From NCBI RefSeq assembly GCF_900087015.1, contig NZ_FLKP01000002.1, positions 496,001 through 560,000 of the forward strand: a DNA stretch of 64,000 nucleotides, in the 5' to 3' direction. A program made the position numbers and the translations under genes. Under the pieces are notes generated by a model. It ran no database searches. It saw nothing but the letters and a program-made list of their open reading frames with translations, and was not told where the DNA came from. This document shows, piece by piece, positions 39,711 through 42,939 of this stretch. Within the stretch, counting starts at the first letter, position 1. Every line of letters begins with the position of its first letter. The stretch is from Christensenella timonensis. GTDB taxonomy: Bacteria > Bacillota > Clostridia > Christensenellales > Christensenellaceae.

Positions 39711-39786
39711 TGGAGCTGATGACGGGACTCGAACCCGTGACCTCGTCCTTACCAAGGACGTGCGCTACCTCCTGTGCCACATCAGC
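39711..39786 (-). tRNA. tRNA-Thr (anticodon GGT)
   Basis: A complete cloverleaf on the minus strand. Acceptor arms GCTGATG and CATCAGC pair fully. The anticodon arm CGTCC/GGACG holds loop TTGGTAA, so the anticodon is GGT (Thr, reads ACC/ACT). The T arm is ACGGG-TTCGAGT-CCCGT. The discriminator T and CCA are encoded. Confidence 0.96.
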
Positions 39787-39887: not shown

Positions 39888-40002
39888 TTGCATATGTATA
39901 AGTTTTGATGTAGAATACATATAACAAGATCAATAAAAAGTAAAAAATGATCACTGAAACGATCAAATAAGCTGTTTATCATCCAAAGAAACAGTTTATA
40001 AT
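39888..40002 (+). promoter_or_regulatory. two candidate promoters of the large non-coding transcript
   Basis: P1 is TTGCAT (39888-39893), 17 bp, TAGAAT (39911-39916). P2 has TATAAT (39997-40002) with a weak TTTATC at 39975-39980, 16 bp upstream. P2 would start transcription near 40008. Confidence 0.6.
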
Positions 40003-40007
40003 AAAAG

Positions 40008-40588
40008 CAAGAAGGAGGACAGAATCGGCGGATGGATGATCCGGAGGAGGTCCTCAATCAAAATGGAAAGGGTGTGATACCGATGTACAGTGAAGAACCT
40101 GTAATGTTGGGCACACGTACACAGACCCGGAAATAAGAGGCTTTGAGGTTTCTTAAGGGGATCGCAGAAGAGTATTTTTGAAAAGTCTATGACGGTTTGG
40201 AAATATCTGCGGCGGCAGCCGTAAAGAAGGCTGTGGCAGGGCATAGGCCCGGTGAGGATGCCAACACAAGTAAGCGAGGAGCAACCGCTAATGTTGCGTG
40301 GGAAAGTTTATGAGTGTACGGTGCCGAAAATGAAAGTTACATACGTTGTGGAAAAGCCCGCGACGAACCATACCGGAAAAGTCCGCTTGTGTGCTAATAA
40401 AGAATTTCGAGGAAACGAAAGCGGTGCACGAATGGATGGGCGGCGAGAACCGACCGGGGGACGCATGACCGAAGGTATTAAAAGAGCGGGGGCTTAAGAA
40501 AAACAGGGTATGTTTCCAAGAGGAATGAATCGATAAAAATAAGAATAAAGTATATTGTAAAGGAGCCTTGTAAACAGGCTCCTTTTTT
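40008..40588 (+). ncRNA. large structured non-coding RNA, class not recognised
   Basis: A promoter-to-terminator unit of about 580 nt with no credible gene. Many local helices fold in order: GAGGAC/GTCCTC (40015, 40050) enclosing CGGAT/ATCCG (40029, 40039); GGGT/ACCC and TGTAC/GTACA (40070-40128); CGCAGA/TCTGCG (40163, 40206); GCAGCC/GGCTGT (40215, 40229); CGTTGTGG/CCGCGACG (40344, 40358); TTTCG/CGAAA (40405, 40416). Loops and joints are rich in GAAA and GGAAA, as in large folded RNAs. Size and the neighbouring tRNA resemble ROOL, GOLLD or OLE RNAs, but I cannot match conserved sequence from memory. RNase P, tmRNA and SRP signatures are absent. Confidence 0.6.
40560..40588 (+). terminator. 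terminator of the large non-coding transcript
   Basis: AAGGAGCCT and AGGCTCCTT form a 9-bp stem with a 7-nt loop and six T. The convergent DUF2142 gene ends 9 bp later. Confidence 0.9.
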
Positions 40589-40596
40589 GCGGTCAA

Positions 40597-42759
40597 TTAA
40601 CTATTATGGAGCCAGTATCTGCCAAACACCATATATGCAATATTGAAAAACAATATAAGGCCGCTTATGGTAAAGACCGCAGTATTATAAACATTGCGAT
40701 TAATATTATTGACAATACGATGGGAACCAATTACATAAAGCACGGGAAAGATGACCGGCATCAAATAGCGGGCCTGACATCCGTTAACCGTATCAAAACC
40801 AACCGGCGTAAAAGCGATATACAGGGCGGAAGCCACACATACAACCGTAATCAAAGCTATCAGCAATGTACGGATTTTATGGGAAACGGTCGTTGTAAAA
40901 CGATCATATTCATTACGATCCGTGAACGAAACAAGCCACAAGAGTACAATCAGAATTCCGTAAAAATAACCACCCCCCAGATAAGCAAAAGATGTCACAT
41001 AGTTCTGTGCATTGCCCATAGATAAATAGGTAGGAATATATTTTATCATCATTTTGCCAAATTCAAACGGATTGTTGAGGATGTATGCGATCTGCCCGGA
41101 TGAATTGACATCGCTGCCGCCGCGCGTATCGCCAACGCCTGCACCGTTGATAAGCATCGGCATGAGGAAAGTAGCCAATACAAAAAGGGTAGTCGCTATG
41201 ACGCTAAGACGGTAGATTAAAAGCGTTCGCCTGGAAGTAAATTTTGATTTTGGCATAAAGAACAGCAGTAAAATAAGAGGGAAGTAAATGGCCTTTGGAG
41301 CCATGCCGACGGCCATTGCTGCAAGCATAATAATCCAGTCGCGAATAGAAAGGATTTTATTTGGTTGCTGTACTTCGCTGAAAAACCATGCAAGGCCAAG
41401 AATCGTAAACCCGGTAACCCACGTATCATAACTAAAGTTAGAAGCAAGAAAAACATTCGTGGGCAGTAATGCCAATACGATTAGAATCATTTTACCTGTT
41501 TTGAGTTTTCGTATTCCAAGGAAGCAAAGCAACGCGAATAAAACAAGACTGGCAATGCGGCCGAGTACTAAAATGTTATGGAATGAAAAATTGAACATCC
41601 GTCCCAAAAACAAGCCGATTGCTCCGGGCAAGTAAGCAAGCTTTTCAAAGGAAAGCTTGGGGGTGGAATCTGTATAAGAAGCCCCTTTGTGGAACATATC
41701 GTCTAACGCCTGATCGACAACCGCTTGATTATCAAGATTAAATTCGGACGAATAGACCCGTGTGATAAACGCCGAATCGGCGGCAGTCATACGGGTATCC
41801 TCACCAAAATAGGAGAGATTCAGGATTTTGGCATAATGCGTTTCATCATCCCATACGACAAGGGCCTGGGAGGTAGGAACAAAGACGGCAATTAAGAATG
41901 CCGCCGCAAGAAATACCGCAAGAAAAAAGAATTCCGGTTTTTTGCCGGAGTGACGGAAAAATATGACAAATATTGATATTACAAAACCAAAAACAGCTAC
42001 TGCTGCAAAATAAACAGGATGCGGCGTCTTATGGGTTGCGCATAACAGAGCGTACAAAATGAAACATAAAATAATAATGATCGCTGCAGCAATCCCCAAA
42101 AGTTTGCAAGAACGTTTCGGATCTTTGGCAATGGCCCTGCCAATGCTGCAAAAGAAATTTTTCATTTTAATGAATACGTTAAAATACAGCAGCAAGAAAA
42201 TAATGATAGCAAGAACAGCAAATATACCAAACATACGTGCAAAATTCCACACTTCAGGCTGGATGAGACGCGTAGCGGGGCTGTCTGAAAACTGGATGCT
42301 GTTTAAAGCAACGGACTGATTGATATCAATACGAAGTTCGGGATATTGCAGATGGGGGATATCCGCAATCAGTTCGGTAGCACCCTGTTGTACATATTCC
42401 GTTTTGGAACCACTCTGGCTGTAAAGGCCGTCTTTATCAGGAAAATAGAATTGTATGTAACCCCAATCGTTCAGAGGAACGTCGAACCGAAGACGGACAG
42501 AAGCGACGCCGGACGCCTGGGTTTGGTCGGCAAAACGCACCAGTATTTGCGGGTCGCCGCTGGTGGGAGTAATCAAATTGCCCTCAACCGTGTAATCCCT
42601 TAATTCAGTATCACCCAAGGAAAATTCATTTTGGACCTGCCCGTCAAATTGATATTGAAACAAGGGCGGATTGGTGTGCTGTATTGCCACCTCCATGAGC
42701 AAAGCGAGAATAAATGCGGCAACGACCGCAGCAATACATTTTTTCACCGTATTTTTCAT
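40597..42759 (-). CDS. DUF2142 family polytopic membrane protein
   Basis: A 720-residue membrane protein. An N-terminal helix (8-27) is followed by an extracytoplasmic beta-rich domain (30-200) and then about twelve hydrophobic helices. A conserved-looking loop WDDETHYAKILNL near 335 recalls the acidic first loop of GT-C glycosyltransferases. DUF2142 proteins are found in surface polysaccharide and teichoic-acid-type clusters; the reaction is unknown. The start MKNTVKK has GGGAG 9 bp away. It is divergent from the glycosyltransferase cassette, with which it probably works. Confidence 0.85.
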   Translation of the reverse strand: MKNTVKKCIAAVVAAFILALLMEVAIQHTNPPLFQYQFDGQVQNEFSLGDTELRDYTVEGNLITPTSGDPQILVRFADQTQASGVASVRLRFDVPLNDWGYIQFYFPDKDGLYSQSGSKTEYVQQGATELIADIPHLQYPELRIDINQSVALNSIQFSDSPATRLIQPEVWNFARMFGIFAVLAIIIFLLLYFNVFIKMKNFFCSIGRAIAKDPKRSCKLLGIAAAIIIILCFILYALLCATHKTPHPVYFAAVAVFGFVISIFVIFFRHSGKKPEFFFLAVFLAAAFLIAVFVPTSQALVVWDDETHYAKILNLSYFGEDTRMTAADSAFITRVYSSEFNLDNQAVVDQALDDMFHKGASYTDSTPKLSFEKLAYLPGAIGLFLGRMFNFSFHNILVLGRIASLVLFALLCFLGIRKLKTGKMILIVLALLPTNVFLASNFSYDTWVTGFTILGLAWFFSEVQQPNKILSIRDWIIMLAAMAVGMAPKAIYFPLILLLFFMPKSKFTSRRTLLIYRLSVIATTLFVLATFLMPMLINGAGVGDTRGGSDVNSSGQIAYILNNPFEFGKMMIKYIPTYLSMGNAQNYVTSFAYLGGGYFYGILIVLLWLVSFTDRNEYDRFTTTVSHKIRTLLIALITVVCVASALYIAFTPVGFDTVNGCQARYLMPVIFPVLYVIGSHRIVNNINRNVYNTAVFTISGLILFFNIAYMVFGRYWLHNS

Positions 42760-42939
42760 AAACGGAAACTCCCTGTTTTTATGGTTATATAATCCCATCA
42801 CATTGTAATATAGCGGCGGCTTTATTGTCAAATAAACAAAGTGCAGAGGAACCTTGAAAAACATAGCAAAGTTACTGAATATGTGTTAAAATAACGAAAG
42901 AATAAGCGGAACTGAGCGACAGACAGGACGGGAGACACC

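Follow-up and report, generated by a model that had tools for sequence, protein, structure and literature searches.

Bacteria contain large RNAs whose functions have long been puzzling. OLE RNA (RF01071) is an ornate RNA associated with OapA and other OLE proteins. ROOL and GOLLD are described, in the part of PMC12286853 drawn on here, as phage and prophage RNAs that often lie near tRNA islands. RNAIII of Staphylococcus aureus, according to excerpts of PMC8383071, is a 514-nt dual-function RNA that encodes the 26-aa Hld, and the smtA motif or Soda Lake RNA, according to excerpts of PMC11109978, exceeds 350 nt, occurs in Thioalkalivibrio only, and is of unknown function.

We analyzed a 64,000-nt window (C2:496001-560000) of the 2.65-Mb genome of Christensenella timonensis (G000); positions without a prefix are those of the window. 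Positions 39888 to 40588 on the plus strand are an autonomous RNA gene of about 570 to 660 nt with two folded domains. The RNA shares with RNAIII its size, many stem-loops, a terminator hairpin, and a short ORF within stem-loops, as far as the excerpted text of PMC8383071 describes them. It differs in having no Rfam match, in having 17 codons versus the 26 aa of Hld, and in that no agr-like neighbor was seen; the same excerpts define RNAIII targeting by three C-rich hairpins, and none was noticed by eye in the Christensenella RNA. The resemblance to RNAIII is one of logic only, not of sequence. By sequence, a conserved short ORF and a ribosome-binding site lie within a structured RNA, as expected of a dual-function RNA. 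Like the Soda Lake RNA, as excerpted, the Christensenella RNA is large, covarying, and restricted to one genus, while genus and locus differ and the excerpts mention no embedded start.

The first-pass annotation had suggested an orphan large structured RNA, possibly of a new class, and this stands on the covariation described below and on the Rfam comparison: cmscan of the window and seven homologous loci found no family that came close to its gathering threshold anywhere along the RNA (best weak match, E = 0.49) and no significant match to OLE, ROOL, GOLLD, or intron models. Its suggestion of a diverged OLE failed. Although OLE is likewise ornate (616 model positions) and present in the same genome, its only match there (C2:1684876-1685487, L085; 437 bits) is a genuine copy at its own locus outside the window, and the OLE model does not match the RNA described here; OLE identity was thus ruled out. 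Our literature search found no paper on Christensenella with OLE RNA. Kinship with ROOL or GOLLD, also suggested for size class and the nearby tRNA, was not borne out. A genome search with RF03087 (ROOL) gave no match at E ≤ 10, and it gave none in control genomes either; GOLLD was covered by cmscan of the library only. In contrast to ROOL and GOLLD, the RNA is chromosomal in position and single-copy, and the phage or prophage tRNA-island setting was not found: the whole 64-kb window holds one tRNA, there is no phage match, and the distribution is vertical. The tRNA neighbor is a chromosomal landmark, not a tRNA island. RNase P and tmRNA were ruled out, since rnpB (RF00010) and ssrA (RF00023) lie at C2:1576609 and C2:1147183 and neither model matches at the RNA locus.

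Transcription unit and fold

The features of the locus are as follows.

39711-39786, minus strand: tRNA-Thr(GGT), divergent upstream neighbor; a landmark outside the RNA
39888-39916, plus strand: promoter-like element; -35 TTGCAT at 39888-39893, 17-nt spacer, -10 TAGAAT at 39911-39916
39923-40588, plus strand: predicted transcript; 5' end placed according to the promoter-like element, conserved fold starting at about 40012
40012-40217, plus strand: 5' conserved domain; R2 covariance model, 198 bits
40026-40029 (CGGC) with 40323-40326 (GCCG), plus strand: long-range helix H1, closing the 5' domain
40030-40042, plus strand: hairpin H2; double changes in 2 of 4 pairs
40066-40081, plus strand: extended Shine-Dalgarno (SD) element GAAAGGGTGTGATACC, complementary to the 16S rRNA 3' tail
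40072-40116, plus strand: hairpin H4/H5 (H4, 40072-40076/40112-40116; H5, 40080-40089/40100-40110), enclosing the start codon together with half of the SD
40083-40136, plus strand: 17-codon ORF, ATG at 40083, stop TAA at 40134-40136; MYSEEPVMLGTRTQTRK
40117-40123 (within the ORF) with 40313-40319, plus strand: long-range helix H6, closing the 5' domain together with H1
40162-40212, plus strand: hairpin H7-H9 (H7, 40162-40168/40206-40212; inner stem, 40175-40185/40193-40203)
40367-40481, plus strand: 3' domain; R1 covariance model, 105 bits; closed multihelix unit, H15 to H19
40559-40588, plus strand: intrinsic terminator; hairpin 40559-40585, then a U-run
40597-42864, minus strand: DUF2142 gene, convergent downstream of the RNA; Pfam, 137 bits

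The RNA runs divergently from tRNA-Thr and convergently with DUF2142, and it has a promoter-like element of its own and a strong terminator, all as previously annotated from the letters. The promoter-like element, TTGCAT-17-TAGAAT, is conserved (TTGCA in six of seven homologues and AGAAT in all seven, read from the alignment), although an automatic consensus scan listed neither it nor the terminator. The terminator hairpin (-14.6 kcal/mol; z = -3.65) was equaled by 1 of 200 shuffles. At the two loci annotated, the terminator is followed by a convergent gene (here) or a convergent ORF (L097, 8947-10101, minus strand); neither thus fits a leader-peptide attenuator, whose ORF would precede a cotranscribed gene. 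The genes flanking the RNA locus encode DUF2142 and patatin. The divergent tRNA-Thr(GGT) lies within 0.6 kb of the RNA in four of seven genomes and about 1.8 kb away in G002 and G004, and it is missing from the 18 kb fetched around the RNA in G003. An integrase-like gene, recognized by eye, adjoins tRNA-Thr in G004 (L097, 4928-6613), as if an element had inserted there.

The statement that the region contains no credible protein holds for long ORFs but not for the conserved 17-codon ORF, which was overlooked together with its ribosome-binding site. ORFs in the region reach 102 aa on the minus strand and 81 aa on the plus strand; a Pfam search of the 81-aa ORF gave no match.

That the locus encodes a structured RNA, as had been proposed, is nearly certain. 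The minimum free energy of the RNA (-186.8; z = -4.1) was not reached by any of 20 shuffles, and above all the seven homologues covary. RNAalifold predicted 96 pairs, 38 of which (65 cells) have changed on both sides and still pair, compared to 18.6 in shuffled and 3 to 10 in slid alignments; 94.6% of cells are paired, compared to 87.3% and 30.5 to 45.1%, respectively. On these measures, none of 500 shuffles scored as high. These counting controls were applied to the RNAalifold structure, and since that structure was drawn from the same alignment, the comparison with slid versions favors it; moreover, the set comprises seven sequences only, two of which (G000 and G005) are 83% identical. Another measure, further pair types, was not raised (72 versus 73.1 in shuffles, with 355 of 500 as high).

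H6 has double changes in five of seven pairs with 87.8% of cells paired, although its 3' strand has alternative possible partners, and H7 is paired in all cells with double changes in three of seven pairs, compared to none in its inner stem, H8/H9. H1 lacks covariation support because it is nearly invariant. In the 3' domain, double changes occur in four of five pairs of H15, two of four of H16, five of nine of H17, three of eight of H18, and neither pair of H19. The H4/H5 hairpin with the ribosome-binding site is predicted in all seven homologues (-12.2 to -18.1 kcal/mol). Taken alone, local folds do not stand out (z = -1.34 for the ORF hairpin and -0.15 for the 3' domain), and a scan for additional helices returned only alternative pairings and short chance stacks.

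Extended Shine-Dalgarno element and 17-codon ORF

The most conserved part of the RNA is GAAAGG--GTGATACC, 14 positions of which are invariant in all seven homologues and which precedes the ATG of the ORF. In the window's genome, 16S rRNA ends in GGCTGGATCACCTCCTTTCT (three stretches read, L108 to L110). Two of these contigs, L108 and L109, begin with the same 5.2 kb, which includes the 16S rRNA gene end; rRNA operons are therefore the probable break points of the assembly. Against its own 16S tail, the SD block forms 15 to 16 pairs, interrupted by a single mismatch and a bulged A; in our reading of the structures, the mismatch falls on the variable pyrimidine column, and the variable purine column can form A-U or G-U pairs. 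The predicted duplex with this tail measures -18.4 to -19.3 kcal/mol across the seven homologues (-18.8 for the window's RNA), and the SD site or a shift of it is the best 16S-pairing window of the RNA core in six of them, while a different 21-nt window gives the stronger duplex in G004 (-22.1). As a yardstick, we scored the 43 window ORFs of at least 200 aa, each at the best start in its first quarter: two have stronger SDs (-21.2 and -19.3) and 41 have weaker ones, mostly -9 to -15. An initial reading of the SD as exceptional was dropped for this reason; since ordinary genes reach such strengths, it argues for a start and for nothing special. As a start signal the SD is strong without exceeding what ordinary genes show, and ribosome binding at the site is likely. 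In the fold model, GAAAGG is unpaired and the 3' half of the SD supplies the 5' strand of H4; the start codon lies inside H5, and the 5' strand of H6 consists of codons 12 to 14 of the ORF.

All seven homologues carry an ORF that is exactly 17 codons long and begins and ends in the same alignment columns. Among frames 6 or more codons long, on either strand, no other stop is shared by column in five or more of the seven homologues (with nested starts); an in-frame GTG three codons upstream of the ATG is likewise conserved. The alignment contains four conserved start triplets on the plus strand and two on the minus strand, and a shared first stop 10 to 40 codons after a conserved start arose in 0.44% of column resamplings. 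pN/pS was 0.60 in sense versus 0.89 in antisense, and third positions vary most, with a marginal excess (P = 0.038). Amino acid similarity (2.146) was matched by an antisense frame (2.137), and a first coding test (0 of 2,000 column shuffles) was set aside as overstated because that frame is equally similar. Altogether, these comparisons lend moderate support to coding by the ORF itself.

The same element was found in viral contigs, where 86 stretches match AAAGGNNGTGATACCNATG; 80 loci with 81 occurrences were read. Frames of at least 50 aa, or running off the end, open at 48 of the 81, compared to 24% of 2,660 random ATGs, and shorter ones open at the other 33. With AT or AC at NN, all 15 occurrences open at least 94 aa, many of them being duplicates. 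GC or GT at NN, seen in six of the seven RNAs, did not occur among the viral occurrences read. The exact 20-mer GAAAGGATGTGATACCGATG is present in L105 (6717-6736), L106 (12055-12074), and L107 (1988-2007), apparently one phage, where by eye it heads a gene for a short membrane-like protein. In viral contigs, the element serves as the start of real genes.

Homologues and distribution

Using blastn against whole genomes, we found the RNA in five of six genomes of the genus and in six of the 18 family genomes. Two covariance models, R1 for the 3' domain and R2 for the 5' domain, placed it in all six Christensenella genomes and, among the 12 remaining genomes of the family, in G017 alone, whose genus is represented by two genomes. 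R2 matched 7 of 18 family, 7 of 396 order, and 3 of 391 class genomes (all three Christensenella), with E ≤ 2.5e-32; R1 matched 8 of 396 order and 2 of 398 phylum genomes. The large order, class, and phylum samples passed stricter filters and overlap in genomes. Two R1 matches, one in G189 that by eye falls within an ABC-F-like frame and one in G1124 (L104), were rejected as homologues because R2 finds nothing at either locus, and weak R2 matches in the family (E = 0.026 to 4.2; three loci read) were taken as chance. Each positive genome has one strong copy by R1 and one by R2. Across the genomes sampled, the RNA is single-copy, vertically inherited, and genus-specific, and we read its locus as an old chromosomal one.

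A pattern scan of genome contigs, a collection that may omit records near the window's genome, returned 57 loci; the two models agree on 4 of them, which all belong to Christensenellaceae, and leave 53 unsupported. Pattern scans of phage, plasmid, and viral-contig collections gave 4, 0, 0, and 3 loci, none of which R1 or R2 supports. A blastn comparison with phage and plasmid sequences found no match to the RNA, and 77 further loci searched with the covariance models contained nothing above 15.4 bits. Our search of the literature on Christensenella noncoding or structured RNA and on the C. minuta transcriptome recognized nothing on this RNA.

Several weak R2 matches are recorded here as side observations. 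Christensenella sp. Marseille-P2438 has a second, unexplained match at L035 5784-5900 (22.8 bits; E = 0.0027), L060 has a further one, and those in L129 and L163 (15.4 bits) lie around the SD-like element.

Possible roles of the RNA

In our best reading, to which we give roughly even chances, the RNA would represent a new class of large dual-function RNA with RNAIII-like logic, its folded body acting in trans. Because the ORF and half of the SD lie inside helices, one of them long-range, a loaded ribosome should be incompatible with the closed fold. 30S subunits would dock on the extended SD, and docking and translation of the 17 codons would unwind H4 and H5 and free the strand of H6 that lies in the ORF; since these must open, the RNA should have two forms, a closed one with the SD half-masked and the domain assembled, and a ribosome-occupied one. 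We infer a trans role for the folded body, which may serve as a scaffold or regulator gated by ribosome engagement, and the 17-aa peptide would be a second, or merely mechanical, output.

Possible, though in our judgment doubtful, is a purely structural ornate RNA, an OLE-like scaffold whose SD-like block is kept for folding or protein binding and whose ORF is incidental. Covariation far beyond the ORF, including the 115-nt 3' domain, would fit such a scaffold, as would the use of half of the SD block as an H4 strand, and ornate RNAs of such size exist, according to the part of PMC12286853 drawn on. However, the invariant block fits the 16S complement outside helices too, in the unpaired GAAAGG, and ORF length and stop are kept in all seven homologues. 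That same conservation, with the strong start, would suit a messenger for the 17-aa peptide with a structured 3' untranslated region, the peptide being the function; yet the peptide constraint is modest (pN/pS of 0.60), and the RNA would have no need of the roughly 450 nt that follow, with their covarying helices, so we regard this as quite improbable. We hold equally little expectation for a ribosome-docking decoy, in which the long SD would hold 30S subunits and the short ORF would merely release or park them. The SD is strong, and in the excerpted text of PMC12286853, GOLLD is said to bind ribosomes in pull-downs and the OLE pocket to resemble the RpsU site. Nevertheless, with stronger SDs in 2 of 43 window ORFs and the element starting ordinary phage genes, the SD need not be a trap. 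It is very improbable that the RNA is a diverged ROOL or GOLLD or the relic of an intron or mobile element: size, the tRNA neighbor, and the integrase-like gene (by eye) beside tRNA-Thr in G004 would speak for it, whereas the absence of an Rfam match or of a confirmed viral or plasmid match, the single copy, and the vertical distribution speak against it.

Alongside the dual-function reading, we considered a translation-gated ornate RNA, in which a ribosome, captured by the nearly complete complement to the 16S tail, would run over the 17-codon ORF strand and so switch the fold, and we hold this unlikely. The RNA, found in a small genus and in a genome that also carries OLE, offers a handle on large RNAs in the form of an invariant, precisely placed ribosome-binding element that overlaps covarying helices, and ribosome switching of a large RNA's fold becomes a directly testable question.
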